A DNA stretch of 64,000 nt from Amaranthus tricolor. Its lineage: Eukaryota > Streptophyta > Magnoliopsida > Caryophyllales > Amaranthaceae. Below the pieces are notes generated by a model. It was not told the origin of the DNA. It saw only the letters and a list, made by a program, of their open reading frames with translations, and made no database searches. Location: the NCBI RefSeq assembly GCF_026212465.1, contig NC_080056.1, positions 7,782,517-7,846,516 of the forward strand, written 5' to 3'. Shown one piece after another: positions 3,812 through 48,453 of this stretch; the stretch's first letter is position 1; each line of letters begins with the position of its first letter. Made by a program: the position numbers and the translations under genes.

Positions 3812-3819
3812 GAAACTAG
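3812..3819 (+). repeat. Left target-site duplication GAAACTAG of the 44.6 kb block
   Basis: The same eight bases occur immediately outside the right end at 48454-48461. An 8-bp duplication is diagnostic of the hAT superfamily. Confidence 0.85.
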
Positions 3820-4214
3820 TAGAGGTGTTCATTCGGGTCATCGAGTCGGTTTCGGACGGGAGTAATTCGGCTCGGTTGGTTTTCGAATCGGTAAATTTTC
3901 GGTTGTGTACAACAACGGGTCATACTCGGGTCAGATCGGTTAGTTACGGGTCGGTTTAACAACGGTTGTTCGCATTATCGGGTTCAAACCGGTTTGTTAT
4001 CGGTTGAAATTCGAGTCGCGTGTCAATCGAGTTCGGGTTGTCATCGGTCTTACATTAGTTCGGTTTTTTCGGGCACAAATCGGGTTCGAGCTTTATTTTT
4101 CGAGTAGTTATCGGTTACGGACAACTATTGATCGGGTCAATATCGAAATAAGTTAATAGTCGGGTTTTTAATTGATGTATGCTCATTTTATGGCAGATCA
4201 ATTTATTTCAATTA

Positions 4215-4220
<6 letters not shown>

Positions 4221-4278
<58 letters not shown>
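4221..4278. repeat. (AT)n microsatellite in E copy 1
   Basis: A pure AT dinucleotide run of about 58 bp. The same site is longer in copies 2, 3 and 4. Confidence 0.95.
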
Positions 4279-4281
<3 letters not shown>

Positions 4282-5328
4282 AGACTATTATTTAATAATG
4301 CATCATGTTGCTACTTTTAATAATTGATTGAATATTAAAACTCGATAATCGAAACTCGATTTGTTTGAATGAATAAGAATAATCTAAACTATCTCATAAG
4401 CTATTAGTTACGTACTTAGACTTATTAGCTTTATTGAGTACTCGGCTAAACTAATAGTCTCTCCAATTCAGAGTAATTATCTCGATTTTCTTTTTAGGCT
4501 TGTAATTAACTTATTAGAAATTTAGAATATATTACTAGAGGGAGAATTTATGCAAATTCCAAATGAGACATTTGTTTTTAATTCGAGGGAGTATAAGCTA
4601 TTAGAATATACATTACTCTATTACACTAATAATCGATTGTATTTCTAAGTTTGATAATTGAAACTTATTATATATAATAAAGTGAATTAGATTAATCAAG
4701 TAATCATAACCATTTTATATGATATTATGTATTTATACTTATTAGTGACCTTGAATACTTTAAAATAATAAATCTATTACACTAATAATTGATCGTATTT
4801 AATTTAAAGCTTAATAATGTTCGGAACTAGACCTATTGGAGTGAATGAAACTAATACAAACTATCTTATAGAGTTATAGAGTTATAGTTATAGACTATCA
4901 TTGACAGTTAACTCAATGTTATTACTGATCTTAGGGCTGGCAAAAGCTGACCCAACCTGCTAACCTGATCTGAAACCGATCCAAAATTAGCGGGTTTGGG
5001 TTTAGATTTTTGACCCAATTAATTAAATGGGTCAACCCAACCTGATCTGTTTATTAAATGGGTTAGGTTCAGGTTGAATTTTTAAACCCGAAAAAAACAT
5101 GTTTAACCCATTTATTAAATTGGTCAATCAGGTCAGGTCGACCCATATTTTAACCCATTTATTAACCCATTAAAAATTTTGTAAATTCAGTTTTATTACT
5201 ACTCATCCTAACTTACTCTAATGTAAATATCAGTTAACAAGGGATTTCTTATTTCTAATTCTCAAAATACTACATTTTTGGAGTACTTTCCAAAAAAAAA
5301 TTGTTGTAGAGATTAGTGAAAGCACAAT

Positions 5329-5379
5329 ATCCCACATCGGTCAAGAAAAAATAGCAAGGTAATGCTATGCATATAAATA
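5329..5379 (+). promoter_or_regulatory. snRNA promoter (USE + TATA) of U5 copy 1
   Basis: ATCCCACATCG at 5329-5339 matches the plant snRNA upstream sequence element RTCCCACATCG. TATAAATA at 5372-5379 follows after 32 bp. That spacing is the RNA polymerase II type (about four helical turns) used by plant U1, U2, U4 and U5 genes; polymerase III genes use a shorter gap. Confidence 0.8.
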
Positions 5380-5398
5380 ACAAAACCTGCTTCTCTTT

Positions 5399-5520
5399 AT
5401 TCTCACGCTACCATGCAGTGAGCACAAAGCGAACTATTCTTTCGCCTTTTACTAAAGAATACCATGTGCTCGCTTAATTAAGTGGCATACGTTTATTTCT
5501 AGAGGAAGCCTTTATAGGCT
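5399..5520 (+). ncRNA. U5: U5 spliceosomal snRNA gene, copy 1
   Basis: U5 snRNA aligns exon ends in the spliceosome through its conserved loop 1. The loop CGCCTTTTACT (5443-5453) is closed by ATTCTTT/AAAGAAT. A second perfect nine-pair stem (one G-U), AGTGAGCAC (5417-5425) with GTGCTCGCT (5466-5474), lies outside it, and a lower stem GCTAC/GTGGC outside that. A Sm-like site ATTTCTAG (5495-5502) precedes a 3' hairpin AGCCT-TTAT-AGGCT ending at 5520. The length of about 122 nt fits U5. The 5' end is set 27 bp after the TATA start and is approximate. In copies 4 and 5 the Sm-like site reads ATTTCTGG, closer to consensus. The gene is internal to E and was probably mobilised with it. Confidence 0.85.
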
Positions 5521-6391
5521 ATTAATAATTTATAGGCTATTAATAATCGATCGTAATTCAAAGTTTATTTATTGTAATTTGATCTATTATAGTAAATGAA
5601 AATAGTACCCCATCTTTTGTTACTTTGAATTAAATAGCCTAAATTATGCAATTTGATCAAATTCAATAATAAAAATATTTAATATTTGATATAAAATATT
5701 TATATACTCAAATAAATTATTTTAGATAACTAATTGTCCAATTTGATGAATATATTACTCAATTGATACATTACTTATTCTAAGTCGTTGATCTTTGTAT
5801 ATAGACGTGTGAGATCTTACTAATTGTCCAATTTTTGTAATGTGCTTATTGGTTTATAATTGATTTTAATATCATGGGGAATCTTATTTATTTATATATA
5901 ATCTTGTTTACAATGTTTCAATATTAGAAATTAGTTTTCAAATATTCAAAAAATCATAATTAGAAAATTGAAATTGGACCTAATTTGCTGAAATTAGGTG
6001 AAAAATTGATTCGGATTTATAACAGTTCGATTAACAATCGGTTCGGGTTTGTATCAGTTCGGATTAAAAACATTTCGATTAATAATCGATTGGGGTTTGT
6101 ATCAGTTCGATCTTAATCGGTTTTAGTCAGGTTGCATTCGGTTACGTGCATAGTTCGGGTCGGATTTGACTCGGGTCGATCACTGTTGAGTTCGGGTAAC
6201 ATCGATTAACGTTTATATGTCGGTTATAAAATTCGGTTGCAGCTCGAGTTCTATTTTGCCCTTTTCGGTTATCAAACGATTCGAGTGCAGTATCGGTTCG
6301 GATAATTCCGGTTCGGTAAACCTAAAAATTTAACATTTTTTCGGGTCGGATAATTTTCAATTCCGGGTCGGGTTTGTTTTGAACAACTCTA

Positions 6392-6653
6392 ATCTTTCAT
6401 GATATCTAAGCCTTCAGATACTTCCTTATCTGGTAGAAGTGCCGTAATAACTGATCCATCAGAATGTGGATGAACTCCATAAACACGATCAGGACACGAA
6501 CAACGAGGATACATTGCAAATCTTGTTGCTATGGCTCCTTCATCCATCTCATTCAACAAACTATCTTCATCTATTTTTATAGACCTTGACATGGCTTTAA
6601 GGAGGACTCCCAGCATAATTTTTAACCTCAAATTGTATTCCTTGACCAATTCT
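6392..6653 (-). pseudogene. 2OG-Fe(II) oxygenase exon 3 (gene D), left-arm copy, cut by E
   Basis: Mirror of 42609-42870. The exon reads LVKEYNLRLKIML..., AMYPRCSCPDRVYGVHPHSD and ends GLDIMKD exactly where E copy 1 begins. HPHSDGS carries the H-x-D iron ligands of the SRG1-like oxygenase family. The 8 bp at 6392-6399 (ATCTTTCA) are the E target duplication; the partner TGAAAGAT lies at 23004-23011. No downstream exon is attached, so the gene is dead. Confidence 0.85.
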
Positions 6654-7130
6654 CTGCATCATAATTGATTAACAGTTTTTCATTTGTAGATAACAATAAC
6701 ACATTTAAGTAAATACTCAACTTTACTTAATTATTTTACCCGATCTGTCTAAACTAAATCCAATTCAATTTCTTCACAATCTTCTTCCTCTACTTTTTAA
6801 TCAAAATCAAAATTAAATTGAAAAAGAAATTGAAGATGAGAAAGAAGAGTTTTCGATTTTGACCAGTTAACCGTAGAAAACGTTACTTGGTACTCATTGA
6901 AAAAGAAAAAAATTTATTAGGAATTTTTTGACAAAACTTTTTCTATAGAGTACAAAACTTTTTCTATAGAGTACCTTTTGGGAAAAAAAATTTATGTAGT
7001 ACTTTTTAACAATTTTTATTTTAAAAATAGCGTTTTATTAATTTATAACTGGATAACTAACTCAATAACTAAACGAGTTATTTAGTTTGAGGTGAAAAGA
7101 TATTTGTTTGATATGCCAAGCTAAATTTAC

Positions 7131-8678
7131 CTGAAATTGTGTGGTTTTTGAGGCCAAAATTGGAATTTACAAAAATTGTCAGGATGAGTAACAAGAATAT
7201 GTAAACACGATCAGGTAAAAGTGCTGTAATAGTTGATCCATCAGTATGTGGATGAATGCCGTAAACACGATCAGGAGATGAACAGCGAGGATACATTGCA
7301 AATGTTGTTGCGATAACTCCTCCATCCATTTGATTTAACAAGCTATTTTCATCTAATCGTATAGACTTCGCCATCGCTTTTAGGAGAACATCAAACATCA
7401 TTTTTAGCTTCAAACTGTATTCCTTTACCAATTCTCTGCATCAATAATTGATTACCATTATTTCATTTTTAGACAATAACATTACATTTGTATAAATCTC
7501 TATATTTTGGGGCTAACACTAAAATAAAATCGAATGATGTCCATAATAATTAAAAAATTATACTTAAAGAGGTTTGGGCTTAGGTCAGCATTGACATAAC
7601 AAATTTTAACCAACACATGCATATCGTAATATCTTTTAAGTATACCATTTTATATATAAGTAAAATATTGTCAGTTGGCATTATTAAATGACATTAGATA
7701 CACCCCTATTGTATTACTTTACAAAAATAAATTATGTTTTAGCCTTCAGTGCTTGAAAACGTACAATAATAAATTTAATTTCACTCATTCTTTAAAAATA
7801 AATTCAATCTAGTAAATTTTAAGTCAACGATTAAATAGATAGATTTTTATCTTTCCGTAATTTCTTATTATATTTTTATATTAATTTTTTATAAAATTAG
7901 TTTTGTCCAAAATTTACGATATAATTAGATAGATTACTCATATGAACAATAATAATAAAAACTAAAGCAAAATAACAATTAAAAACGATAACTTTAAGGA
8001 ACGGAGGAACTATATAGGTGTAATGATTAGTAGATTAAGAAAATATAAGGTTTTATGCCATAAAAACCTCCTCGCATGCAAACCGTGTTAAATTCCTACG
8101 TGGAAGTAATTAATAATTAGGTTAAGAATATCATCCTTTTTGGACCTAGCTATCATGTAATTTTTAATCGAACTTCGACTCTGACATTATATTTAAGTTT
8201 AGACTTGACTCATTTTGAACGTCAGCATATATAATCGGAAAACACAAGATGATGCTCACACTTCATAAGCCAAATAGATACCATATCAAATCCATATATG
8301 AGGACAGTGGGAGAAAAATCTCCAATGACCTATAAAATATGCAAATCATCTTTAATTTGTAAAAACAACCCAACAATACACACCAAGAAAGTTATGCAAG
8401 TCATATATATACCTGAAGTTGTGTGGTTTTTGAGGCCAAAATCGGAGTTTACGATATTTGTCAGGATGAGCTATGAGAAATAATCTATCATTCCAGTTCA
8501 AAGATTTCTCATCTCCTGCAATAAAGGAGGAATTTGCATACCCATTGAAGTATTTGGTAGTGTTCTTCGATGGAATTGGGCAATATTTCAGTTTCTCATC
8601 TAAAGGAAGCCCAAAAAATTGCTTGGAAACATTTAGCAATTCATCCAAGAATGAACTCGTCATCCCATGATTTATCAC
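7131..8678 (-). pseudogene. 2OG-Fe(II) oxygenase fragment (gene C), left-arm copy, two exons
   Basis: Exon 2 is 8413-8678 (VINHGMTSSFLDELL..., LNWNDRLFLIAHPD) and exon 3 is 7131-7435. In exon 3 the HPHTDGST iron-ligand motif is followed after LLPD by a duplicated, out-of-frame tail of exon 2, ending in a donor-like CAG/GTAAAT. Between the exons (7436-8412) is intron, with a relic of the repeat family seen at 51288-52266. One residue differs from the right-arm copy in the fused tail (GLKNHT here, GLENHT there). Exon 1 and the last exon are absent. Confidence 0.8.
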
Positions 8679-8741
8679 CTAATCAATAATTACCACAAGA
8701 ATTAATCCCTCATTTTGATTTTGTTAGACAATAGTTAGATA

Positions 8742-9107
8742 CTCCCTCCGTTCTTTTTTGATCTTCCACTTTAAGTTTTTCACACATATTAAGGAAGATA
8801 TAATCTTTGGGTTGTAGTGGGTATTATTTTAATTAAATAGTAGTGTGAAGTAATGATTGTATTGGAAGTATGAGGTTGTAGTGAGAATTATTTTAATTAT
8901 ATAGTAGTGTGAAGTAATAATTGTATTGAAAGTATGAGAGAGAAAATAATTATAAATAAAAGCAACGGGGTACATTAAAAGAAAAGAGGGTTTTAAGGGG
9001 TAAAAGTGGGATAAAAACTTTCTAAAAATAGAAAGTATTCTAAAGTGGAAGAACTTTTGAAACTACCCGTTATAGTAATGTGGAAGATCAAAAAAGAACG
9101 GAGGGAT
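8742..9107. mobile_element. Stowaway MITE, left-arm copy
   Basis: The termini are CTCCCTCCGTTCTTTTTTG and its inverse, flanked by TA on the left. The inner TIR extends over GATCTTCCAC. Its mirror is at 40155-40520. Confidence 0.85.
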
Positions 9108-10967
9108 TATTAATTTATCATTTTATGGATGAATTATAAACAACAAATGAATGGTCAATAACACTATCAATAATAATATTAAAACATTGTACAATACAAG
9201 TACTTTTATTCAATGCAACATAATGGCTCTAATGATGGACAATTCTAAGATGAGGCCCTGAATCACAACTCATGGTGTTCATGCTATTCAGCCAGGCTTA
9301 GTGGGGTTAATTTCCAAAAAAGAAAATAATTTAAAATAAGTAGAACAAAATAAATTGAAAATTGATACAAATTTTTGCTACTCTATATGTCCTCATGATT
9401 TTGGAACATACGCTATTGCAGTGTGTGGATAAGATAAATATTAATAGACTGTTTGGTTAATGGTACTAAATGGTGGTAATGAGAATGATTTATAGTGTAA
9501 AAATTCATCAAAAGTTCCATAGCATTTCCATGGTAATGAAACTTTGATCACAAAAAAGTTTTTTTGTTTACAAATTTCCATTACCACCTAATATCACATC
9601 TCCCAATGATAATGCATTGAAATGAATTTTATAAAGAAAATAAGATGATTAAAGTTGGACAAGTATGACCTTTAAGGTAGCCAAAAGATTTTTCAACTAA
9701 AATTATATTAATTTTTCATTTTCAATACCACCCTCTATTATCATCTATCAAATGGATCGTAAATAAAATAAGAGAATATAAATATTTGTGAGGAGTCAAA
9801 ATAAAAATTAAATGCAAATTAAATAGAAATGAGAATATATGGCAGCTGAATTAAGTCTCGGTAAAGTTAGATGTGTTATGAGTACATGAGTAGCTTTCAA
9901 TCTGAGTTGGCAGTCACGTGCCTTTATGAATAACTAAAAGATTGCAAACAAATGATGATGGTATGATGAATAAGAATACAACATGATACGCATTTGCTCA
10001 AATTTCTACGACTTATTTGTTTCACATATTTTTTTTTGACTAATTGGGTGAGTTAAGCTTTAATGGGTTGAACTTAAGAGATGTTTCCCACAAAGAAGAT
10101 CTCTCAAAAGATAGGTTGTATTTTTTTTTATACTAGACCCATTACATGATAATTACATCATTTTGACATTGTACCAAGTATTAAGAACTGATAGTAAAAT
10201 AGAATAAAAGTTAATGATGACAAAAATATAAAAATTAATAAAATATGAAGTAAGATAAAATAAAATAAATAAGACAATTTATAAGTTACTTCCTTTATTA
10301 TGACATGCTCCCTCATATAATATTCTAACCAAATGTGAAATGTTTCATTTAGTTTTGCACACTTATCGATTTTTAGATCGTAAATATCTCTAATCATGCT
10401 TCTTTAAAAACTATACTCCCTCTATTTTTAAATGTTCTTCTCATTCGCTTTTTTCGTATATCTCAATGTAAACTTTAAATCAAATAATGTAAATTGTAAG
10501 TTTTTAAAAATTCTAAAAAGTTGATATTTAAAAGTATATATTTTGAAACAAATCTAACAAGATACCACATGAATATGTTTTTTCTTATAGATCGATTGAA
10601 AATCATAGTCAAAATTTAACACTAAAATTCGTAAATTACATATGAAAATGGAATGAGTAAAAGTTAAATATTAATAAAATTAACATTTAATCATGATAGG
10701 AGTGAATATATAGCAATACAGCATATATTGTGAAACTGATGTAATTAAAAATATAGCAAACATTATGACACAAAGGTGGTATATAATGTTTTTAAATTAA
10801 TTTTAAAAGAAATAGATGTAGAAATATTAGTTTTGAAAGAGAAAAAAATATCAATTATGAAATGAGGAGGGATATTATGATGTGAAAAGTAATTGTATGA
10901 TGTGATTGATTGTCTTCTTAGCCTACTCCTTTAAATGATTAGGATGTCAACTATGCTTATTTTGACT
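9108..10967. other. Left arm, no gene; MITE relics
   Basis: A Tourist-like relic lies at about 9447-9760, with degenerate ends resembling GTTTGGTTAATGG, and a decayed Stowaway-type stretch starts near 10415 (TACTCCCTCTATTTTTAAA). Nothing coding is recognised; the longest open frame (10158-10397, minus) is low-complexity and hydrophobic. Confidence 0.5.
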
Positions 10968-11170
10968 AGGGCCGATCAAAGTTTGATTTAAATTGTAAAT
11001 CAAATCGGATCAAACCGTAATTTAAGTATTTAGTTTAGTCTACGGTCTAAATGGCCTGATCAGTTTTTTTTAAATTACAGTTTCCGATCCGATCTAAGTT
11101 TTAAAAATTTTAGACCAGACCGGACCGAAAAACCATAATATATTCTGGTCTGGTGTAAACCGTGTGACTC
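10968..11170 (+). mobile_element. hAT end relic, left-arm copy
   Basis: TAGGGCCGATCAAAG starts a stretch rich in TCGGATC, GACCGG and similar motifs, resembling a hAT terminus with its subterminal repeats. No opposite end or target duplication was found. Its mirror is at about 38107-38309. Confidence 0.4.
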
Positions 11171-12119
11171 AAACTCAGACTCAAGTTCAAATCCACAACC
11201 AAAGTCTTATACTTCATATTTGAATTCAAACCTATCGAGTTTAATGGGTTTAGGATTTTAAAAGTGTACCTAATGACTTATAGATGGATTGTATTTAATC
11301 ATTTATTTTACCTTTTTTTAACATGGTTGGATCATAAATTAAGTTTAAGAAAAGTTTGAGTCGAATCTAAGTTAAATAAATAGTCAAAAGCACCAATATA
11401 GAGAGAGTGAATGATAATCATTTTCAATAACACAAAAGTCATGACTCATGAGTCGGCCGCCACATTAAGAAGATATCAACTTATTTAATACCTAATTTTA
11501 TATTTATATAAAGTCATTTTAAAATATATAAGGACTATATACATCAAAAAATGTTAAACTAAGGATATTTTCAAGGTTAAGTAAACAAACAATGTCAATA
11601 AATTAGGTGAAAGAACATTTGAGAATTTGTTAAAATTGTTGATAGGGAGCTCAACTAATGAAATAAATGAAGAAAGGAGGGTGTTTATTTGCATCATTGG
11701 ATCAATTTGAATTATTTTAAAATCGGTTCTTGTATTCACATTGATTTTTACATTATTTTAAATTCACTTTAAAGTCGAGTTAAGTTGGATTCAGTTTTAA
11801 ACGTCTCTAGAAAGAATTGAGATTTATATGCTTGCTCGGCACCCCTGAGCGACTTGATTGCTCACTCAAGCTTATGAAGTTGTTTACATTCTGCCTTGCT
11901 CACTCCATAGAATTATCACAACTTCTCATGTTTTGATACTCCAAAATATAAAGTATTTCAAGAATTTAATTTTATGGGAAGGGGAAAATAACGAAAAAAT
12001 TTTAGTGAAATGATCGATAAAATATAATATCACATTGAAGACCATAAGAATTAACACAAAAACTCGAGAAAATTTCAAAACCATCAATTTAGACCAACAC
12101 AATTCATGTGTGTAACATT

Positions 12120-12298
12120 TTTACTATCCTACCCCACTAACCTACAATTACCCCTATCCTACCCTACCCTAAACCCCTATCCTAACCTACCCTAAACCCC
12201 ACTATCCTACCCCACCTTAAACCCCTACCCTATCCTACCCCACTAACCTACAATTACCCCTATCCTACCCTACCCTAAACCCCTATCCTAACCTACCC
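12120..12298. repeat. Telomere-like minisatellite, left-arm remnant
   Basis: Irregular units such as CCCTATCCTACC and CCCTAAACCCCTATCC. It is much shorter than the right-arm array at about 36555-37155 and joins directly onto the truncated LTR at about 12299. Confidence 0.8.
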
Positions 12299-14685
12299 TA
12301 AATTCAATAATCGTTTCGTTTTATTATTTTATTTTTAATGCCGTTTCGAAATTTTATTCCAATCGTTTTTAAGTTCTCGTTTTTCTTTTATATATAATTT
12401 ATTTCTCTTAAAATAAATTATCTAAATATTAAGTCTAGCTAAATTAACTACAATAAGTTAATCTTTTTATTTCCCATATTAATTTATTAAAAATAAAGAT
12501 ATATATTATAATAATAATTAAAAAAAAAAAGGTAAAATTCTAAAAAGTTGGCGGCAAGACTAAAACTAGGTGACAAAAAATTTTAATGTAGTCTTATCCT
12601 TATGATAAAATATCTTGGAGTAATTATATTTGCTTGCACATGAAGGAAAATTAAAACAACAAAAAAATTACAATCCTTAGCCTATAAATAGAACAAGCAT
12701 ACCGTGGGTAAAAGGAAAGGAGGAGAAAAAAAAAATCAGAAAATTTATTCCTAAAAGCAAATTTCTAAAGAAAAATTCTAAAAACCCTAGAAAAATTCCT
12801 AAAAATTCTCAAAAATTTTCTAATAATAGTATTTAGTGTTAATTATAGAAATTCAAGGGGAGGAAGCTAATTTTGTGGCTAGAAATTCTACAACAAAGGG
12901 AATTAATTAATAGTTATATTAGTAAAGGTATAAATTATAGATTTCATTATATTTCAATTTCATATTCTGCAAATTTTGGTGAATTAATTCGTTGTAAATT
13001 AATTTATATGATTTATTCTTTGAAATTGCCAAAAACCGCAAAATCTGAAATAATTTAAATTAAAATAGTTAATATTAATATTTTTAAACGAAATTTTTTC
13101 TGTACATATATATATATGAGATATAGATTTTGTATTAATTTCGTGAAATATTGTTGAGTATAAATATTATTATTAATTTTTTTCTAAAAAAAACAAACCG
13201 CAAAATCTGAAATAATTTTAATTATAATAGTAAATATTAATATTTTTAAACGAAACTTTTTCTGTATATATATAAATATGAGACATGAGTTGTGTATTAA
13301 TTTCGTGAATTGTTGAATATAAATATTATTATTAATTTTTTTTGCTAAAAAACGCATAAAATAAGGAAATTCATAAATTTGGGTTTAAAATAATTAATTC
13401 TGGAAAAAAATAATTTATTTTAGTGTTACTGTATTTTCATTTCATTTAAATTATTTTTGTGAAATTTTATGATATTTAAATTTTAAAGAAATAAATTAAT
13501 AAATTAAATGGTTATTGTAGGCAAAAAGAATAAAAATGAAAGAAATAATTAAAATTAATTTATTTTGGTGAATAAGAATATATGCCAACTCATTTAATAA
13601 ATTATTTATTTTAAAATATTTCGTGTCGATTTTGATCCTAAGAAAATTAATTATTCATGTACAAAATTTAAAAATAAGTTATTAAGAAAATAATAAAGCA
13701 TAATTGAAATTTATCTATAAATAAATACTAAAGACCCATTTTAGTTTTGATTTAGTTTAATAATAAATGAATATTTATATGCAAGATGTTATGAATTTAT
13801 TTCTATTGTATGTTATTGTAATGTTGCATTTATATGAAAACAGTAACATGATAATAAAAAGGCTTGATAGTAAGGAAATTTCGAACCATGCTTCCGGCAT
13901 GTAAAAAACGTGGGACGTGTTTTCCGACACGTAAAATACGGCGAACACAGTAAGGTTGTTTAACCTGGCCTGTGGCTCGAGCAATATTGTACTGGAGGAG
14001 TGACGACTCCCACTAAGTTAGGGGTTTTGGTTTACCTCACCCTAACAGGCCCTTACATATATCAAACAAAGATCATATGTGTTGCATTCATTAAATAAGT
14101 AGTCGGATTCCACGCCCTAACACTTCACACTCAAGCAGAAGTGTTAGTAAATCACGCCCTGGTACTCAAGCAGAAGGACCAGAAGTTATATATATATAAA
14201 TGAATCTAATATGAAAATGAATTCCCTATAATACATAAGATACCTTGCATATTATTTATTGCAATGCACTTATTTTTGCTTATTACTTAATTGTCGTGCA
14301 TATACTATCCATACTTGTATAGTTGCGGTAAATTTTTATACTCGGTTTTTTTTAAAGCTGACCGATTTCCATCGGCTGTTCCCATATTTCGGGAGCAGAT
14401 GCAGCAGGTAACTTTACGTGAAGTTATTAAGAAGATATTGTATTGTTTATGTGAGATTAGGATATAATATGTATATAGTTTATATTACGGACGATAATTA
14501 TGTATTATAGAAAGATGTAATACGTAAAATTATATTTTAATGATTTAAGTTTTCTTTGTTTTAATTGAAAATTCTGTTTTGTCTTATTTGTTTTTCGCAA
14601 TAATCACGGTACGATAGACTTCCGCTTAGCATTACCTACTATTATATTATTATAAACCTAAATTCGAAAAGAACGCTCCGTTACA
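12299..14685 (+). mobile_element. Solo LTR, left-arm copy, 5' end deleted
   Basis: Matches the right-arm LTR 33844-36312 in reverse. It ends GCTCCGTTACA followed by GCCTT, the inverse of the right-arm duplication AAGGC. The first ~38 bp and its flank are missing, apparently by a deletion running into the minisatellite. A promoter-like TATAAATAG lies at 12683-12691. A tandem duplication of about 150 bp (about 13030-13185 and 13195-13345) lies within. No retrotransposon internal region follows. Confidence 0.75.
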
Positions 14686-15138
14686 GCCTTTTAATAGACA
14701 TAACCTGCAACATTGTGTAGATGATATCACTTGAATTTTCTAATGAAACAAAGGGAGTCTTTTTTTTTGTTGTTTTTTTTTTTTTTTGATTTGAAATGAT
14801 GAAATGATGAAACAAGGGAGTTTAATTTGGTTTATAATAAAATTGTGTAAAAGGTAATGTATCAACGGTTGTCAAAATTACTTATTATCTTTTTAAATAA
14901 ATTTTAATTAATAATATTTAATTTATTTTATGATAAATTTTAAAATTTTAAAATACTAAGAAAATACATATGTTACAACAAAATTTAAGATTGAAACTGA
15001 TTATTAATATGAAGCAAGTAATTTTTTGTAGACATGTATTTCAACTCATATATTTAGATCACAAGGATTGTTTAACTTTTTTTAGAGGGAAGTTATGATA
15101 AAACAAAACTTTTTGTAATGAGAAACATTTTGTCAACA

Positions 15139-17090
15139 AAACTTGATCAGGCCGTGCACAACGTGGGTAGATTCCGAATCTTGTGTCTATGGATCCTCGT
15201 TCACCATGCTCCTTTATGACGCTGTCATCCTTTAAATCCAGGCACCGCGCCATGGCTTTCAGCATAATTAATAAGATTACTGTCAAATTCAATGATAACT
15301 CATCCAGAACTTCTCTGCAAGCTCACAAGAACTCGTTTTTCTTAATAAAATCCACTAAATGCATATGAAAAACAATCACTATAAACCCATCAAAAATCAG
15401 TTCTAGTCAGCTCATATCAATTGAAATTTGTAATCAACTGATAGATAGATGTATATGCTATGATGTGACAATTCGTCACATAATCACCCCATGAGCCCAC
15501 TCATGTGGACCCACCAACATGGCACCCATGGGCTCAAACCCACAAACCCATCGACTTGCATACAAAACATGATGAGTTTCACTCTTTTCCAAAACCATAC
15601 GGTATTAAGAGGATTACACATCAAGCATTATATACAAGTCTATAATTCACTATTTTAGTGATTTGAGATCTTCACATGTGAAATAGTTTCAACAGTATAC
15701 TTTCAAATTTAATTACCTTGATGCCAGGCTTCACTTTGACTTCCGCTTGTGAGGGGTGGGGTTTTGGGTAGGATGTACGCACTACGCAACCTTACACTTC
15801 GTGAAAATAATAGGTTGTTTACCAAATATTATGTGTATGTTTGCATTACTAAAAATTACACATGATTTGATGAGCCATTTTGCTCATTATGACCTGAAGC
15901 AAAGAAATATTGAACATCGGCCTATTAGGAATAACTAGGATGAATATGAATATGAGGGGAACACTAGAAATTGACAAAGATCAATTCAACAATAGAATCA
16001 ACAACAATGCGAAAGCCTAAATCCCAAAAGATTGAGTCGTCTACATAAACGCCCATGTGAGATTTTTGGTACATGTTCATGGATGTGACTAAATTTTACT
16101 GAGCTGGTTGTCACTAACTTACCGCTTACCTACCTCTTTTATTCGGGCTTGGGACCTAGGGGAGGAGTTAGCTCAAACAATAGAATAAAAATCAGAATTC
16201 TAAAGGGTTGATAATTGATAATGTACCTAAACTTTTGAGGCTTTTGAGGCCAAAGTTGGAGCTTTCTTTGATCTTCAGGATAAACAGTAAGAAAGAGTCT
16301 ATCATTCCAATTCAGAGACTTATTCCCTGCAATAGTTGCAGCATTCCCATATCCATTAAATAAATCTTCAGCTATTGAGCATTTTAGTCTCTACTCTAAT
16401 GGAAGTCCAAAAAATTGTCTAGTAACCTCAATCAAATCATTCAGAAATGAAATTGTCATCCCATGATTTACAATCTATCATTAATAAGAAAAATTACTTA
16501 ATGATTTGTTTGATCATAAGTGTAATAAACATGTTGGAGTATATAAATATCCTAAGGCCTCAAGCCTACTATCATCGACTTAAGTTTTTGGTTGAGTTGA
16601 TTTCTTGAAATAATATCAAAAGTCAGCATTATAAGAGGTCACATGTTCAAATCATACCTCTTATTTAATTTTTTAAGATAAGAAAATGTATAATCTCAGA
16701 TAATTTTTTAAGATAAGAAAATATATAACCTCAGATATGGAGAGAATCTATGTTACGTCCATATTTTAAGCTCATAGAGACTCTTATGTGAGGGGTATTT
16801 TGCGGTCTCATGACAAAATAAGTAAAGAATCAAAGAAAAAAATAAAAAAATAAAAACCTGGAAGCAACCCCAATCTTGTTAAGCAGAGTGAAGTTTGGTG
16901 AGTTCATTTTGAGCAGCAGTAGAAGGATCATAAACAGAAAGAGGAGAAAAATCAATGAATAAAGATTGATTCCATAAAGTTGGGGAAGCATCAATGGCAG
17001 GAAGTATAACTTCATTTTTAAGGATGTAATTTTCTGGGATTTCTCCTGTACTAATCTTGATGCTATATCTTCATTCCTTGATTCATCCAT
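15139..17090 (-). pseudogene. 2OG-Fe(II) oxygenase (gene B), left-arm copy, three broken exons
   Basis: Exon 1 is 16858-17090, exon 2 is 16227-16474 and exon 3 is about 15139-15314. It carries the lesions described for the right-arm copy (31443-33394): a frameshift in exon 1, an in-frame stop in exon 1 and in exon 2, and loss of sequence after PRCARPDQV in exon 3. Intron 1 holds a SINE relic; intron 2 (15315-16226) has no other recognised feature. Confidence 0.85.
16601..16803 (+). mobile_element. tRNA-derived SINE relic in gene B intron, left-arm copy
   Basis: The stretch TATCAAAAGTC... GAGGTCACATGTTCAAATC resembles a tRNA-like SINE head with a decayed B box (GGTTCGAATC). The following bases match the body of the SINE copies at 50550-51814 in inverse orientation. 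Its mirror is at about 31730-31932. Confidence 0.55.
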
Positions 17091-18395: not shown

Positions 18396-18548
18396 TAATA
18401 CTGAATTGAAAGAAATATTAAATTATGGATCTACAATCACCAACTTGAAAAACGAAATTTAAAAATAGATAATTAGTGCCCAAAAGTTGCCTCTCATCTT
18501 TTTGTCTGTTTCAGTAACTTTAAGCCATTTTTATTTCAGCTACTCTTT

Positions 18549-19779: not shown

Positions 19780-19782
19780 TAA

Positions 19783-21298: not shown

Positions 21299-21399
21299 AA
21301 ATAAACGTATGCCACTTAATGCAGCGAGCACATGGTATTCTTTAGTAAAAGGCGAAAGAATAGTTCGCTTTGTGCTCACTGCGTGGTAGCGTGAGAATA
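21299..21399 (-). ncRNA. U5: U5 snRNA gene, copy 2, 3' truncated
   Basis: The USE (21458-21468) and TATA (21418-21425) are intact with the standard 32-bp gap. Loop 1 and both main stems are intact. The element breaks at the Sm-like site, so the usual 3' hairpin is gone. The joined sequence happens to recreate ATTTTTGA, a better Sm-site match than the parent. Whether a stable 3' end forms is unknown. Confidence 0.75.
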
Positions 21400-21417
21400 A
21401 AAAGAAGCAGGTTTTGT

Positions 21418-21468
21418 TATTTATATGCATAGCATTACCTTGCTCTTTTTTCTTGACCGATGTGGGAT
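21418..21468 (-). promoter_or_regulatory. snRNA promoter (USE + TATA) of U5 copy 2
   Basis: Minus-strand ATCCCACATCG, 32 bp, then TATAAATA, exactly as in the other copies. Confidence 0.75.
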
Positions 21469-22514
21469 ATTGTGCTTTCACTAATCTCTACAACAATGTT
21501 TTTTTTTGGAAAGTACTCCAAAAATGTAGTATTTTGAGAATTAGAAATAAGAAATAAGAAATCCCTTGTTAACTGATCTTTACATTAGAGTAAGTTAGGA
21601 TGAGTAGTAATAAAACTGAATTTACAAAATTTTCAATGGGTTAATAAATGGGTTAAAATATGGGTCGACCTGACCTGATTGACCAATTTAATAAATGGGT
21701 TAAACAGGTTTTTTTCGGGTTTAAATATTCAACCTGAACCTAACTCATTTAATAAACAGATCAAGTTGGGTTGACCCATTTAATTAATTGGGTCAAAAAT
21801 CTAAACCCAAACCCGCTAATAAACAGATCAGGTTAGCAGGTTGGGTCAGCTTTTGCCAGCCCTAAGATCAGTAATAACATTGAGTTAACTGTCAATGATA
21901 GTCTGTAACTATAACTCTATAACTCTATAAGATAGTTTGTATTAGTTTCATTCACTCCAATAGGTCTAGTTCCGAATATTATTAAGCTTTAAATTAAATA
22001 CGATCAATTATTAGTGTAATAGATTTATTATTTTAAAGTATTCAAGGTCACTAATAAGTATAAATACATGATATCATATAAAATGGTTATGATTACTTGA
22101 TTAATCTAATTCACTTTATTATATATAATAAGTTTTAATTATCAAACTTAGAAATACAATCGATTATTAGTGTAATAGAGTAATGTATATTCTAATAGCT
22201 TATACTCCCTCTAATTAAAAACAAATGTCTCATTTGGAATTTGCATAAATTCTCCCTCTAGTAATATATTCTAAATTTCTAATAAGTTAATTACAAGCCT
22301 AAAAAGAAATCGAGATAATTACTCTGAATTGGAGAGACTATTAGTTTAGCCTTTAGAGTACTCAATAAAGCTAATAAGTCTAAGTACGTAACTAATAGCC
22401 TATGAGATAGTTTAGATTATTCTTATTCATTCAAACAAATCGAGTTTCGATTATCGAGTTTTAATATTCAATCAATTATCAAAAGTAGCAACATGATGCA
22501 TTATTAAATAATAG

Positions 22515-22517
<3 letters not shown>

Positions 22518-22604
<87 letters not shown>
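22518..22604. repeat. (AT)n microsatellite in E copy 2
   Basis: A pure AT run of about 87 bp at the same position as in the other E copies. Confidence 0.95.
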
Positions 22605-22610
<6 letters not shown>

Positions 22611-23003
22611 ATTGAAATAAATTGATCTGCCATAAAATGAGCATACATCAATTAAAAACCCGACTATTAACATATTTCGATATTGACCCGATCAATAGTT
22701 GTCCGTTACCGATAACTACTCGAAAAATAAAGCTCTAACTCGATTTGTGCCCAAAAAAACCGAACTAATGTAAGACCGATGACAACCCAAGCTCGATTGA
22801 CACGCCACTCGAAGTTCAACCGATAACAAACCGGTTTGAACCTGATAATGCGAACAACCGTTGTTAAACCGACCCGTAACTAACCGATCTGACCCGAGTA
22901 TGACCCGTTGTTTTATACAACCGAAAATTTACCGATTCGAAAACCAACCGAGCCGAATTACTCCCGTCCGAAACCGACCCGATGTCCCGAATGAACACCT
23001 CTA

Positions 23004-25551: not shown

Positions 25552-25943
25552 TAGAGGTGTTCATTCGGGTCATCGGGTCGGTTTCGGACGAGAGTAATTC
25601 GGCTCGGTTGGTTTTCGAATCGGTAGTTTTCGGTTGTATACAACAACGGGTCATACTCGGGTCAGATCGGTTAGTTACGGGTCGGTTTAACAACGGTTGT
25701 TCGCATTATCGGGTTCAAACCGGTTTGTTATCGGTTGAAATTCGAGTCGCGTGTCAATCGAGCTCGGGTTGTCATCGGTCTTACATTAGTTCGGTTTTTT
25801 CGGGCACAAATCGGGTTCGAGCTTTATTTTTCGAGTAGTTATCGGTTACGGACAACTATTGATCGGGTCAATATCGAAATAAGTTAATAGTCGGGTTTTT
25901 AATTGATGTATGCTCATTTTATGGCAGATCAATTTATTTCAAT

Positions 25944-25948
<5 letters not shown>

Positions 25949-26031
<83 letters not shown>
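25949..26031. repeat. (AT)n microsatellite in E copy 3
   Basis: A pure AT run of about 82 bp. Confidence 0.95.
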
Positions 26032-26035
<4 letters not shown>

Positions 26036-27073
26036 CTATTATTTAATAATGCATCATGTTGCTACTTTTGATAATTGATTGAATATTAAAACTCGATAAT
26101 CGAAACTCAATTTGTTTGAATGAATAAGAATAATCTAAACTATCTCATAGGCTATTAGTTACGTACTTAGACTTATTAGCTTTATTGAGTACTCTAAAGG
26201 TTAAACTAATAGTCTCTCCAATTCAGAGTAATTATCTCGATTTCTTTTTAGGCTTGTAATTAACTTATTAGAAATTTAGAATATATTACTAGAGGGAGAA
26301 TTTATGCAAATTCCAAATGAGACATTTGTTTTTAATTAGAGGGAGTATAAGCTAGTAGAATATACATTACTCTATTACACTAATAATCGATTGTATTTCT
26401 AAATTTGATAATTAAAACTTATTATATATAATAAAGTGAATTAGATTAATCAAGTAATCATAACCATTTTATATGATATCATGTATTTATACTTATTAGT
26501 GACCTTGAATACTTTAAAATAATAAATCTATTGCACTAATAGTTGATCGTATTTAATTTAAAGCTTAATAATGTTCGGAACTAGACCTATTGGAGTGAAT
26601 GAAACTAATACAAACTATCTTATAGAGTTTTAGAGTTATAGTTACAGACTATCATTGACAGTTAACTCAATGTTATTACTGATCTTAGGGCTGGCAAAAG
26701 CTGACCCAACCTGCTAACCTGATCTGTTTATTAGCGGGTTTGGGTTTAGATTTTTGACCCAATTAATTAAATGGGTCAACCCAACTTGATCTGTTTATTA
26801 AATGGGTTAGGTTCAGGTTGAATATTTAAACCCGAAAAAAACCTGTTTAACCCATTATTAAATTGGTCAATCAGGTCAGGTCGACCCATATTTTAACCCA
26901 TTTATTAACCCATTGAAAATTTTGTAAATTCAGTTTTATTGCTACTCATCCTAACTTACTCTAATGTAAAGATCAGTTAACAACGGATTTCTTATTTCTA
27001 ATTCTCAAAATACTACATTTTTGGAGTACTTTCCAAAAAAAAACATTGTTGTAGAGATTAGTGAAAGCACAAT

Positions 27074-27124
27074 ATCCCACATCGGTCAAGAAAAAAGAGC
27101 AAGGTAATGCTATGCATATAAATA
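27074..27124 (+). promoter_or_regulatory. snRNA promoter (USE + TATA) of U5 copy 3
   Basis: ATCCCACATCG (27074-27084), 32 bp, TATAAATA (27117-27124). Confidence 0.75.
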
Positions 27125-27143
27125 ACAAAACCTGCTTCTCTTT

Positions 27144-27243
27144 ATTCTCACGCTACCACGCAGTGAGCACAAAGCGAACTATTCTTTCGCCTTTTACTAA
27201 AGAATACCATGTGCTCGCTGCATTAAGTGGCATACGTTTATTT
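27144..27243 (+). ncRNA. U5: U5 snRNA gene, copy 3, 3' truncated
   Basis: Mirror of copy 2. Loop 1 and its stems are intact (ATTCTTT/AAAGAAT from 27181). Single-base differences from copy 1 include CACGCAGTG and GCTGCATTAAG. The 3' hairpin is replaced by oxygenase intron DNA. Confidence 0.75.
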
Positions 27244-27616
27244 TTGACTTGAGTTATTGACTATATAGCATTATATTTAAAGCATCAGGTATTTTCTTAA
27301 GCTTAAGCTGATTAGTCAAAGTCTCAAGATTAGTAAGAAGGGGTATGAGTAGGATTCGAATAGGGTCTAGCAAACTGAGATTTACACCTTATTTTTTGTA
27401 GGACCCAAATCCAAACTCAAATCCTTTGAAGTTGAAAATTTAGGACTCATATCCTAGATTTATAGGGTCCAAAAAAAGAGTGAGACCCTCAAATTAGGGT
27501 CGACTCTGGGTCTAGACACATACACATCTATACTCCATGTAAATAATATATGTATATCTAGTGTATGATGAGTTCTTAACCTGATTGTAGTCTTAAATGA
27601 TGGCTTTAAAATGCAG

Positions 27617-28750: not shown

Positions 28751-28753
28751 TTA

Positions 28754-42870: not shown

Positions 42871-43744
42871 TAGAGTTGTTCAAAACAAACCCGACCCGGA
42901 ATTGAAAATTATCCGACCCGAAAAAATGTTAAATTTTTAGGTTTACCGAACCGGAATTATCCGAACCGATACTGCACTCGAATCGTTTGATAACCGAAAA
43001 GGGCAAAATAGAACTCGAGCTGCAACCGAATTTTATAACCGACATATAAACGTTAATCGATGTTACCCGAACTCAACAGTGATCGACCCGAGTCAAATCC
43101 GACCCGAACTATGCACGTAACCGAATGCAACCTGACTAAAACCGATTAAGATCGAACTGATACAAACCCCAATCGATTATTAATCGAAATGTTTTTAATC
43201 CGAACTGATACAAACCCGAACCGATTGTTAATCGAACTGTTATAAATCCGAATCAATTTTTCACCTAATTTCAGCAAATTAGGTCCAATTTCAATTTTCT
43301 AATTATGATTTTTTGAATATTTGAAAACTAATTTCTAATATTGAAACATTGTAAACAAGATTATATATAAATAAATAAGATTCCCCATGATATTAAAATC
43401 AATTATAAACCAATAAGCACATTACAAAAATTGGACAATTAGTAAGATCTCACACGTCTATATACAAAGATCAACGACTTAGAATAAGTAATGTATCAAT
43501 TGAGTAATATATTCATCAAATTGGACAATTAGTTATCTAAAATAATTTATTTGAGTATATAAATATTTTATATCAAATATTAAATATTTTTATTATTGAA
43601 TTTGATCAAATTGCATAATTTAGACTATTTAATTCAAAGTAACAAAAAAAATGGGGGTACTAGTTTCATTTACTATAATAGATCAAATTACAATAAATAA
43701 ACTTTGAATTACGATCGATTATTAATAGCCTATAAATTATTAAT

Positions 43745-43866
43745 AGCCTATAAAGGCTTCCTCCAGAAATAAACGCATGCCACTTAATGAAGCGAGCACA
43801 TGGTATTCTTTAGTAAAAGGCGAAAGAATAGTTCGCTTTGTGCTCACTGCATGGTAGCGTGAGAAT
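43745..43866 (-). ncRNA. U5: U5 snRNA gene, copy 4, complete
   Basis: All elements are present: loop 1 CGCCTTTTACT with ATTCTTT/AAAGAAT, the outer stem AGTGAGCAC/GTGCTCGCT, the Sm-like site ATTTCTGG and the 3' hairpin AGCCT-TTAT-AGGCT. The U5 body looks the same as that of copy 5. Confidence 0.87.
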
Positions 43867-43885
43867 AAAGAGAAGCAGGTTTTGT

Positions 43886-43936
43886 TATTTATATGCATAG
43901 CATTACCTTGCTCTTTTTTCTTGACCGATGTGGGAT
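43886..43936 (-). promoter_or_regulatory. snRNA promoter (USE + TATA) of U5 copy 4
   Basis: USE at 43926-43936 and TATAAATA at 43886-43893 on the minus strand, 32 bp apart. Confidence 0.78.
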
Positions 43937-44986
43937 ATTGTGCTTTCACTAATCTCTACAACAATGTTTTTTTTTTGGAAAGTACTCCAAAAATGTAGTA
44001 TTTTGAGAATTAGAAATAAGAAATCCCTTGTTAACTGATCTTTACATTAGAGTAAGTTAGGATGAGTAGTAATAAAACTGAATTTACAAAATTTTCAATG
44101 GGTTAATAAATGGGTTAAAATATGAGTCGACCTGACCTGATTGACCAATTTAATAAATGGGTTAAACAGGTTTTTTTCGGGTTTAAATATTCAACCTGAA
44201 CCTAAACCATTTAATAAACAGATAAGGTTAGGTTGACCCATTTAATTAATTGCGTCAAAAATCTAAACCCAAACCCGCTAATTTTGGATCGGTTTCAGAT
44301 CAGGTTAGCAGGTTGGGTCAGCTTTTGCCAGCCCTAAGATCAGTAATAACATTGAGTTAACTGTCAATGATAGTCTGTAACTATAACTCTATAACTCTAT
44401 AAGATAGTTTGTATTAGTTTCATTCACTCCAATAGGTCTAGTTCCGAACATTATTAAGCTTTAAATTAAATACGATCAATTATTAGTGTAATAGATTTAT
44501 TATTTTAAAGTATTCAAGGTCACTAATAAGTATAAATACATAATATCATATAAAATGGTTATGATTACTTGATTAATCTAATTCACTTTATTATATATAA
44601 TAAGTTTTAATTATCAAACTTAGAAATACAATCGATTATTAGTGTAATAGAGTAATGTATATTCTAATAGCTTATACTCCCTCTAATTAAAAACAAATGT
44701 CTCATTTGGAGTTTGCATAAATTCTACCTCTAGTAATATATTCTAAATTTCTAATAAGTTAATTACAAGCCTAAAAAGAAATCGAGATAATTACTCTGAA
44801 TTGGAGAGACTATTAGTTTAGCCTTTAGAGTACTCAATAAAGCTAATAAGTCTAAGTACGTAACTAATAGCCTATGAGATAGTTTAGATTATTCTTATTC
44901 ATTCAAACAAATCGAGTTTCGATTATCGAGTTTTAATATTCAATCAATTATCAAAAGTAGCAACATGATGCATTATTAAATAATAG

Positions 44987-45110
<124 letters not shown>

Positions 45111-45258
45111 ATTGAAATAAATTGATCTGCCATAAAATGAGCATACATCAATTAAAAACCCGACTATTAACTTATTTCGATATTGACCCGATCAATAGTT
45201 GTCCGTAACCGATAACTACTCGAAAAATAAAGCTCGAACCCGATTTATGCCCGAAAAA

Positions 45259-46325
45259 ACCTTAACATTAAATTTTGGATTTAACCTGACTATGAGTAGT
45301 ACTTTGGATCTGAAATACAATGATAGCAAGAGACAAGACACTTTAAGAGATAATTGTCAACACTGATCAGTATGATGTATCAGCAGAGTACTTGTAAGTA
45401 TAAAATAAGGGAATTCAAAGCCAATAAAGATTGTAGGAGTTATGAACCATAGAAGCTCCTTAATTTAGACCTTTAATACCTAAAGAGAAGGAAATTGACA
45501 TTGCTACTCCTAAAAAATGTACTTTAAAACCCCCCAAAAGGCCTCAATCATGTTGACAGGATAAAAAAAGAAAACGGGAAGGATAAAGAAAATGTAGGGC
45601 AAGGCAGTGCGATGAGCGCTAGATAGGATGGTGGCTATCAGAGCTAGAAGCAATCAACAAAGTACAGTCAGGGGAAGGGAAGATTGGTAGAGGTATCGGT
45701 GTATGTAATTGTTACAAAGATTCAACAACCATAATTGGCCATGGCCACAAGTCTAAGTGTCAGATTCGGATAGAAAAAAAAGAAACCCATACTCTTTTTT
45801 TTTATTACTACTAACAGCGACTTAAATTAAAAAAAAAAATTTTTTTTTTTAGTCGCTGTTAGTAACAGCGACTTTGGGCTTTTAATTTTTATTTTTTTTT
45901 TAGGTCGCTGTTACTAACAGCGACTTTGGGCTTTTAATTTTTTTTTTTTCCACTTTCGCTGTTACTAAAAGCGACTCTACCCGAAGCTAGGATTGGATAT
46001 ACGGAAGTTTATTTTGGGACATAAGTTTTTCCCAATCTTATATTTGGAATTAAGTAGATAAATAATCTCATTTTTTTTCAAATTTTCGAAGTACGTAACA
46101 CTTGGGCTATTAAAAGAAAATTATTTCACTCCAAATTTTTCTTTAGAAAAAAATAGAATTTCATGGAAATGCTCAGCATAAAACCCACCCCACTAACTAC
46201 CAAAAAGAAAACAAATTTATTCAAACTTCCTCTCAAATTTCTTCAATCAGATCGTTGATCTTAAAATGCAAACCAACTAACGAGTATTGATGTTTAAAAG
46301 CATGCATGGTAGGAGTGATTAATGA
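45259..46325 (-). repeat. Inverted copy of spacer segment 23085-24154
   Basis: Reverse complement of part of the spacer, including roughly the left two thirds of the fold-back element and its left end. It is bounded by AACC at the left join and ATGA at the right join, each shared by both partners. Confidence 0.85.
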
Positions 46326-47376
46326 GACTATTATTTAATAATGCATAATGTTGCTACTTTTGATAATTAATTGAATATTAAAACTCGATAATCGAAACTC
46401 GATTTGTTTGAATGAATAAGAATAATCTAAACTATCTCATAGGCTATTAGTTACGTACTTAGACTTATTAGCTTTATTGAGTACTCTAAAGGCTAAACTA
46501 ATAGTCTCTCCAATTCAGAGTAATTATCTCGATTTCTTTTTAGGCTTGTAATTAACTTATTAGAAATTTAGAATATATTACTAGAGGTAGAATTTATGCA
46601 AACTCCAAATGAGACATTTGTTTTTAATTAGAGGGAGTATAAGCTATTAGAATATACATTACTCTATTACACTAATAATCGATTGTATTTCTAAGTTTGA
46701 TAATTGAAACTTATTATATATAATAAAGTGAATTAGATTAATCAAGTAATCATAACCATTTTATATGATATTATGTATTTATACTTATTAGTGACCTTGA
46801 ATACTTTAAAATAATAAATCTATTACACTAATAATTGATCGTATTTAATTTAAAGCTTAATAATGTTCGGAACTAGACCTATTGGAGTGAATGAAACTAA
46901 TACAAACTATCTTATAGAGTTATAGAGTTATAGTTACAGACTATCATTGACAGTTAACTCAATGTTATTACTGATCTTAGGGCTGGCAAAAGCTGACCCA
47001 ACCTGCTAACCTGATCTGAAACCGATCCAAAATTAGCGGGTTTGGGTTTAGATTTTTGACGCAATTAATTAAATGGGTCAACCTAACCTTATTTGTTTAT
47101 TAAATGGTTTAGGTTCAGGTTGAATATTTAAACCCAAAAAAAACCTGTTTAACCCATTTATTAAATTGGTCAATCAGATCAGGTCGACTCATATTTTAAC
47201 CCATTTATTAACCCATTGAAAATTTTGTAAATTCAGTTTTATTACTACTCATCCTAACTTACTCTAATGTAAAGATCAGTTAACAAGGGATTTCTTATTT
47301 CTAATTCTCAAAATACTACATTTTTGGAGTACTTTCCAAAAAAAAACATTGTTGTAGAGATTAGTGAAAGCACAAT

Positions 47377-47427
47377 ATCCCACATCGGTCAAGAAAAAAG
47401 AGCAAGGTAATGCTATGCATATAAATA
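47377..47427 (+). promoter_or_regulatory. snRNA promoter (USE + TATA) of U5 copy 5
   Basis: ATCCCACATCG (47377-47387), 32 bp, TATAAATA (47420-47427). Confidence 0.78.
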
Positions 47428-47446
47428 ACAAAACCTGCTTCTCTTT

Positions 47447-47569
47447 ATTCTCACGCTACCATGCAGTGAGCACAAAGCGAACTATTCTTTCGCCTTTTAC
47501 TAAAGAATACCATGTGCTCGCTTCATTAAGTGGCATGCGTTTATTTCTGGAGGAAGCCTTTATAGGCTA
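47447..47569 (+). ncRNA. U5: U5 snRNA gene, copy 5, complete
   Basis: Full U5 layout with ATTTCTGG as Sm-like site and the terminal AGCCT/AGGCT hairpin. Two copies of TAGGCTATTAATAAT overlap and follow the end. A plant 3'-box was not clearly identified. Confidence 0.87.
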
Positions 47570-48453
47570 TTAATAATTTATAGGCTATTAATAATCGATC
47601 GTAATTCAAAGTTTATTTATTGTAATTTGATCTATTATAGTAAATGAAACTAGTACCCCATCTTTTTTGTTACTTTGAATTAAATAGCCTAAATTATGCA
47701 ATTTGATCAAATTCAATAATAAAAATATTTAATATTTGATATAAAATATTTATATACTCAAATAAATTATTCTAGATAACTAATTGTCCAATTTGATGAA
47801 TATATTACTCAATTGATACATTACTTATTCTAAGTCGTTGATCTTTGTATATAGACGTGTGAGATCTTACTAATTGTCCAATTTTTGTAATGTGCTTATT
47901 GGTTTATAATTGATTTTAATATCATGGGGAATCTTATTTATTTATATATAATCTTGTTTACAATGTTTCAATATTAGAAATTAGTTTTCAAATATTCAAA
48001 AAATCATAATTAAAAAATTGAAATTGGACCTAATTTGCTGAAATTAGGTAAAAAATTGATTCGGATTTATAACAGTTCGATTAACAATTGGTTCAGGTTT
48101 GTATCAGTTTGGATTAAAAATAGTTCGATTAATAATCGATTCGGGTTTGTATCAGTTCGATCTTAATCGGTTTTAGTCAGGTTGCATTCGGTTACGTGCA
48201 TAGTTCGGGTCGGATTTGACTCGGGTCGATCACTGTTGAGTTCGGGTAACATCGGTTAACGTTTATATGTCGGTTATAAAATTCGGTTGCAGTTCGAGTT
48301 CGATTTTGCCCTTTTCGGTTATCAAACGATTCGAGTGCAGTATCGGTTCGGATAATTCCGGTTCGGTAAACCTAAAAAATTAACATTTTTCGGGTTGGAT
48401 AATTTTCAATTCCGGGTCGGATTTTCGGGTCGGGTTTGTTTTGAACAACTTTA

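Follow-up and report, generated by a model that had tools for sequence, protein, structure and literature searches.

Can a plant DNA transposon carry a U5 snRNA gene, promoter included, and spread it through a genome? The question is raised by a 64,000-nucleotide stretch of Amaranthus tricolor DNA (hereafter, the window), in which a preliminary description had recognized five copies of a non-autonomous hAT-type element, E, each with the U5 loop, and had proposed that the whole U5 gene moves with E as its cargo.

U5 copies and rearranged E elements in the window

The presence of the U5 loop in all five E copies was confirmed by covariance models: cmscan returned five U5 matches in the window, at 81.8-85.3 bits against a gathering cut-off of 40 (Table 1), and no Rfam family besides U5 reached its gathering score there. 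The loop itself, CGCCTTTTACT, occurs five times, as against a mean of 0.01 in shuffled sequences. Further, the plant USE that had been placed 32 bp ahead of a TATA box is indeed found in 5/5 copies, with the USE TCCCACATCG at -79 and the TATA box TATAAATA at -37 from the U5 5' end, and the spacing of 32 bases is that of the resident genes. The 3' ends fared differently. A Sm-like site and a 3' hairpin, attributed to three copies, are present in copies 1, 4, and 5, but the Sm site reads TTTCTAG or TTTCTGG instead of TTTTTGG and the hairpin is shortened. Copies 2 and 3 keep the Sm site, beyond which the sequence is unrelated, and none of the five window copies has the 3' box CAN3-10AGTNNAA. Each copy is thus damaged at the Sm site or the hairpin, and the idea of a whole U5 gene within the window was rejected, as an intact 3' end is absent from all five.

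Table 1. Positions of the U5 copies, their promoters, and the elements that hold them, numbered from the first base of the window.
Feature	Position	Strand	Remarks
Window	contig C10:7782517-7846516		
U5 copy 1	5409-5523	+	81.8 bits; Sm site changed, hairpin shortened, 3' box absent
U5 copy 2	21276-21388	-	83.1 bits; Sm site intact, downstream unlike U5 3' hairpin
U5 copy 3	27154-27268	+	85.3 bits; as U5 copy 2
U5 copy 4	43742-43856	-	81.8 bits; as U5 copy 1
U5 copy 5	47457-47571	+	81.8 bits; as U5 copy 1
USE TCCCACATCG, U5 copy 1	5330..5339	+	
USE TCCCACATCG, U5 copy 2	21458	-	
USE TCCCACATCG, U5 copy 3	27075	+	
USE TCCCACATCG, U5 copy 4	43926	-	
USE TCCCACATCG, U5 copy 5	47378	+	
TATA box TATAAATA, U5 copy 1	5372..5379	+	32 bases past USE
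E copy 1	3820..6391	+	both hAT-type ends, TAGAGGTGTTCA ... TGAACAACTCTA
E copy 2	21299..23003	-	left end and U5 only; left-end flank ATCTTTCA
E copy 3	25552..27246	+	left end and U5 only; flank CCGGCTTC
E copy 4	42871..45261	-	without left end; right-end flank ATCTTTCA
E copy 5	46322..48453	+	without left end; right-end flank GAAACTAG (48454-48461)
M left part (TAGGGCTGGCAAAAG...) with U5, in E copy 1	4932..5515	+	right end lost
M left end, E copy 2	21864	-	
M left end, E copy 3	26686	+	
M left end, E copy 4	44336	-	
M left end, E copy 5	46978	+	
Half of split 2OG-Fe(II) oxygenase exon	6392..6620	-	other half from 23004, + strand

The E ends TAGAGGTGTTCA and TGAACAACTCTA were both found in the window, where only E copy 1 retains the pair, while copies 2 and 3 end shortly past the Sm site. 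An inverted repeat of about 19 kb dominates the window (4062-23003 versus 25552-45261, 98-99% identity), so that E copies 1 and 4, and likewise 2 and 3, are mirror partners and not separate insertions. Exons of 2OG-Fe(II) oxygenases lie in this repeat (PF03171 at 7078-7440 on the minus strand and 27572-27976 on the plus strand).

Target duplications had been described at two sites, and of these the ATCTTTCA pair marks a true insertion site, but none of the five window copies is matched on both sides. E copy 1 itself has unmatched flanks, GAAACTAG (3812-3819) and ATCTTTCA (6392-6399). The latter sequence (equal to TGAAAGAT) flanks the right ends of E copies 1 and 4 and the left end of E copy 2, and the left flank of E copy 3 differs from it. 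When the ATCTTTCA flanks are joined, they form an unbroken exon, with a 2OG-Fe(II) oxygenase match that spans the junction (E-value 1.2e-14), which indicates insertion of this E into a gene, followed by rearrangement that broke the element up. The other flank, GAAACTAG, recurs at a distance of 44.6 kb, to the left of E copy 1 and to the right of E copy 5 (3812-48461), as if the stretch were one composite insertion (a macrotransposon or a product of alternative transposition) or an E opened by later insertions.

The E copies also contain an (AT)n tract of variable length (4220-4278 in E copy 1). A. tricolor has unusually many long AT tandem repeats, which break its contigs (PMC9847342), and the E family may contribute to them. 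Elsewhere in the window, we observed tandem repeats with a unit of about 28 bases (36604-37166), a pair of inverted arms (2 x 314 bases, 92% complementary, with 8 bases between; 52270-52905), and broken ORFs on the minus strand (52752-56030) that by eye resemble remains of a copia-type retrotransposon; the copia-like ORF at 52752-53573 matched no Pfam family.

E and a nested carrier, M, across the genome

We searched the A. tricolor assembly (519,850,330 bases, 45 contigs) for the U5 loop pattern CTWTTCTTTCGCCTTTTACTAAAGAATA with up to three mismatches and found 218 matches (117 + 101), and none for the reversed control. The U1 5' end gave 18 (8 + 10; reversed control, 0), a comparison that is rough, given that the pattern lengths differ and the sequences drift. 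The first 100 of the 218 loop matches, which are those listed, are all free of mismatches and run from contig C1 to C10. The junction between promoter and U5, CATACCAACTTACGCAGCCACGCCGTGAGC, was found 185 times (92 + 93, up to three mismatches; control, 0), with C1-C15 and C17 all represented among the matches listed, and the resident gene L007 is expected among the 185 by its sequence. Arabidopsis, by comparison, has 14 U5 genes (PMC545797). A search with the U5 family model additionally scored 47 candidates. The 80 loci fetched from these searches reduce to 70 distinct U5 loci, or 75 with the five window copies. Selection of the 70 was not random: 30 had the best family scores, and the others are mismatch-free loops in map order. 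Among the 75, 52 share one 3' flank (the major type), six have the promoter type of the window (L074 and the five window copies), and 17 have neither; at these 17, no E ends were present in the fetched stretch.

On C1-C4, a stretch covered completely, the 57 perfect loops comprise 41 of the major type, one of the L074 type, which is a related full-length element, and 15 without E ends, 10 of which form a single U5 array on C1. The 41 major loci divide into 31 with both E ends and a duplication, two with M alone, and eight with ends missing or unmatched. The array (C1:42632478-42773898) holds ten perfect loops, many of them 4,772 bases apart. U1 is arrayed as well, with U1-like matches about 12,170 bases apart at C2:19765589-19802124 and 36488056-36560720, and four resident U5 genes (L001, L007, L070, and L073) lie 0.9-1.2 kb from a U1 gene.

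The proposal that U5 moves with E was upheld, because at 39 of the 52 fetched major loci, drawn from part of the genome, U5 lies between two E-type ends that are bordered by 8-bp duplications (36 exact and three with one mismatch), 34 of them distinct. The best pair among candidate ends was picked at each locus, with a chance of an exact 8-bp match of about 1 in 65,000 per pair. The other 13 major loci consist of three with M alone and 10 with ends missing or unmatched. Non-redundant E lengths range from 1,427 to 3,127 bases, of which the AT tract is a large part. The terminal inverted repeats (TAGAGGTG, TAGAGCTG, and TAGAGTTG) fit the published plant hAT end pattern [T/C]AGNGNNG (PMC6027215), and 8-bp duplications likewise fit hAT (PMC8903248); by ends and duplications together, E and M would both be members of the hAT superfamily. 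Five U5-bearing E copies on C3 (L013-L017) have one and the same duplication, CTCCTACA, and stand about 47.5 kb apart within two groups, which is a segmental duplication of a 47.5-kb unit. Another common duplication marks L066 and L067 as segmental copies.

E is, however, not the immediate carrier, and our results amend the preliminary description in this respect. Specifically, U5 is bracketed inside E by two further ends, TAGGGCTGGCAAAAG and GTTTGACACCCCTA, which lie 772 bases apart and delimit a smaller hAT-type element, M, whose termini (TAGGGCTG and TAGGGGTG) also fit [T/C]AGNGNNG. M stands alone with exact duplications at three loci (L009, L021, and L022: GTATTGCC, ATATTTAT, and TTTTAAAG), and within E its duplication is TCTGCTAT, with a one-base insertion on one side. 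It occupies three different places in E, one in the major family, one in L074 and L082, and one in the window type, and the corresponding empty sites exist: W1 and L020 lack M at the L074 site, and L074 and L082 lack it at both the major and the window-type site. In the L074/L082 type and the window type, M has lost its right end, so these two insertions are each read from one end. The USE region is doubled in 28/32 M copies, and a FastTree phylogeny of 32 M copies is star-like, with a few supported subgroups, as after a burst.

Complete and amplified U5 cargo

Although a whole U5 gene as cargo did not hold for the 3'-defective window copies, it does hold for elsewhere in the genome. The full hairpin GRAGGAAGCCTTTAATTAAGGTTTCC (up to two mismatches) occurs twice, at L074 on C4 and L082 on C17, which are long E elements whose promoter is of the window type. 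Each has the USE, TATA box, Sm site, complete hairpin (sequence GGAAGCCTTTAATTAAGGTTTCC), and a 3' box, CAATAAATCTAGTCTAA, that fits the published 3' signal CAN3-10AGTNNAA (PMC545797). They score 95.9 and 94.0 bits, respectively, as U5 (Rfam RF00020), with L074 exceeded only by L001 among the loci scored together, and the L074 U5 folds as a complete U5. The duplication at L074, GTATACAG/GTATATAG, matches at 7/8 positions; no matching duplication was seen in the flanks of L082.

The amplified form is 3'-truncated and chimeric. In the major consensus, the hairpin stops after AAGGTT and the 3' box is lost, and position 9 is C (32/34 copies) as opposed to A in the resident genes and L074, which opens a stem pair. 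Over the promoter and the sequence ahead of it (M 182-536), the consensus agrees at about 95% with L007, a resident U5 gene whose 3' end is intact and which has a U1 gene 0.9 kb away. Over the U5 body and hairpin (M 430-551), it agrees at 97.5% with L074, and the body is closer to L074 than to L007. We read the major form as a probable recombinant, in which a U5 carried by M and a resident U5 gene are joined at a point inside the RNA; the promoter's source could be a lost sister gene rather than L007 itself. Major copies diverge from their consensus by about 2%. At 6-7 x 10^-9 substitutions per site per year, the burst would date, very roughly, to 3 million years ago.

The explanation that we favor, with a probability of about 0.9 as a whole, is that a U5 gene was captured in M, that M was nested in E, and that one form was then amplified. 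A chromosomal amaranth U5 snRNA gene, comprising USE, TATA box, RNA, and 3' box, would have been captured by M, a small non-autonomous element of hAT type, presumably by interrupted gap repair with template switching. M would then have jumped into E, a second such element, at three different places, with both presumably moved in trans by hAT transposases encoded elsewhere. One nested form would subsequently have been amplified in a burst, reaching every large chromosome and well above a hundred sites. The promoter of this form matches the resident U5 beside U1, and its 3' hairpin is that of the older U5 on M, which suggests that copying switched between two U5 templates, for example in the repair of an excision gap; the form would be without function. 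The order of these events is the one that we infer, and the window would hold an older side branch of E, rearranged within a 2OG-dioxygenase gene region.

Other explanations account for parts of these observations. Target-specific DNA transposons for snRNA genes exist (PMC3706591), and U5 might accordingly be the mark of a preferred target, into which the transposon inserts, and not its cargo. This is highly improbable and is contradicted by the position of U5 inside the ends, between duplications that differ (34 distinct sequences), as well as by the E insertion in the 2OG-dioxygenase exon, by M alone at three unrelated sites, and by the 15 U5 loci on C1-C4 without E ends. An origin of the family by ordinary segmental duplication, or by retroposition that left RNA-templated U5 pseudogenes in repeats by coincidence, is very improbable. 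Segmental duplication does hold for L013-L017 and for L066/L067, but it does not produce 34 distinct 8-bp duplications over 39 loci, while retroposition is opposed by the promoter upstream of the transcript and the transposon ends traveling along, with copies that stop exactly at the ends of E or M. For the window alone, an assembly artefact might underlie the five copies or much of the inverted repeat, given that long AT tandem repeats break contigs in this assembly (PMC9847342), that E contains an AT tract, and that E copies 4 and 5 begin at or near it. We consider this unlikely, since the arms of the inverted repeat are 1-2% different and therefore not one sequence placed twice, and the genome-wide case for capture and amplification is independent of the window.

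Whether the spread has been adaptive, with transposon-borne U5 transcribed and supplying or diversifying the U5 pool, is a separate matter, and from sequence we regard it as unlikely. In its favor are the two elements in which the gene is complete by sequence, the exact USE at 44/52 fetched major loci, the TATA-like box at resident spacing in the copies inspected, and the consensus U5 body in 15/47 non-redundant major copies; given the counts for USE and body, the transcription of some major copies is possible. Against it stand the stem C, the cut hairpin, and the absent 3' box of the major consensus, and the pattern of divergence. U5 appears better conserved than the rest of the element when its whole body is counted (43/3196, 1.35%), but that figure includes the 28-base core by which loci were chosen; outside the core, 40/2244 positions are changed (1.78%) versus 495/24664 (2.01%) in the E ends and 3' flank (Fisher p 0.53), so that the apparent sign of selection on the U5 copies vanishes. 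Promoters of major copies diverge by 77/2751 (2.8%). C>T and G>A account for 28/40 of the changes in the U5 body and 296/495 of those in the E ends and 3' flank, a pattern that would be expected of methylated transposons. Most U5 copies are probably passive cargo, because neither the window type nor the major type has an intact 3' end and, in the sampled major copies, U5 has diverged as the surrounding transposon has. The suggestion that E offers a way to multiply spliceosomal RNA genes thus stands insofar as U5 copies have spread; as a multiplication of genes it is doubtful, because the amplified type has no 3' box and its U5 is not extra conserved.

More tentatively, and as an unlikely reading, we can envision a loop of exchange, in which complete U5 cargo (as in L074 and L082) might be transcribed at new sites and swap promoters or variants with the resident U1/U5 clusters through homologous copying. 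The hAT family would then be a mobile extension of the U5 gene family that recombines with it and would, perhaps, itself benefit from a strong snRNA promoter, as the doubled USE region in most M copies might hint.

Relation to known systems and significance

Mobile elements with small-RNA gene sequence include the Cassandra TRIM, which has 5S rRNA promoters, and SINEs that arose from small RNA genes; unlike E and M, these are retrotransposons whose own expression unit includes the RNA gene. It is known that non-autonomous DNA transposons capture genes (Pack-TYPE) and that others insert into snRNA genes (Dada). Pack-TYPE elements, including Pack-hAT, and transduplication (PMC8903248) resemble our case in being non-autonomous, with a host gene inside, hAT-type ends, 8-bp duplications, and clustered copies. 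M shares with them the capture of a host gene, as seen in the match of about 95% between M 182-536 and L007. They are, however, described there for coding DNA, and the term "snRNA" is absent from the main text of that report, whereas the cargo here is a Pol II snRNA gene, U5, which is nested in two transposons and mass-amplified, and which in two elements is complete with promoter and 3' box. Dada elements (PMC3706591; PMC8869645) are also DNA transposons linked to snRNA genes, but they are described as inserting into U6, U1, and tRNA genes with 6-7 bp duplications (PMC3706591), whereas in the present case the transposon encloses the snRNA gene and has 8-bp duplications. M is like the plant hAT-type MITEs (PMC6027215, PMC10004981) in its length of 772 bp, its ends, and its duplications, and differs from them, as described, in having a host snRNA gene. 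LINE-made snRNA pseudogenes (PMC4476161) are likewise dispersed, but RNA-templated, whereas the copies here include promoter DNA and transposon ends. We found no report of an snRNA gene as the cargo of a DNA transposon in the open-licence literature.

What appears to be new is the nature of the cargo: pieces of coding genes were known before, whereas the unit carried here is an entire Pol II snRNA gene, short enough to fit into the transposon in full. Its carrier has raised the number of U5-loop loci in A. tricolor to at least 218, versus the 14 U5 genes given for Arabidopsis (PMC545797) and 18 U1 matches in the same assembly. Homology-based snRNA counts in such genomes accordingly count mostly transposons, which is a warning for annotation. 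Beyond this, the U5-bearing elements of A. tricolor are a natural experiment in snRNA dosage and variants, in the dispersal of multicopy RNA genes, and in the renewal of transposon cargo from a host gene family.
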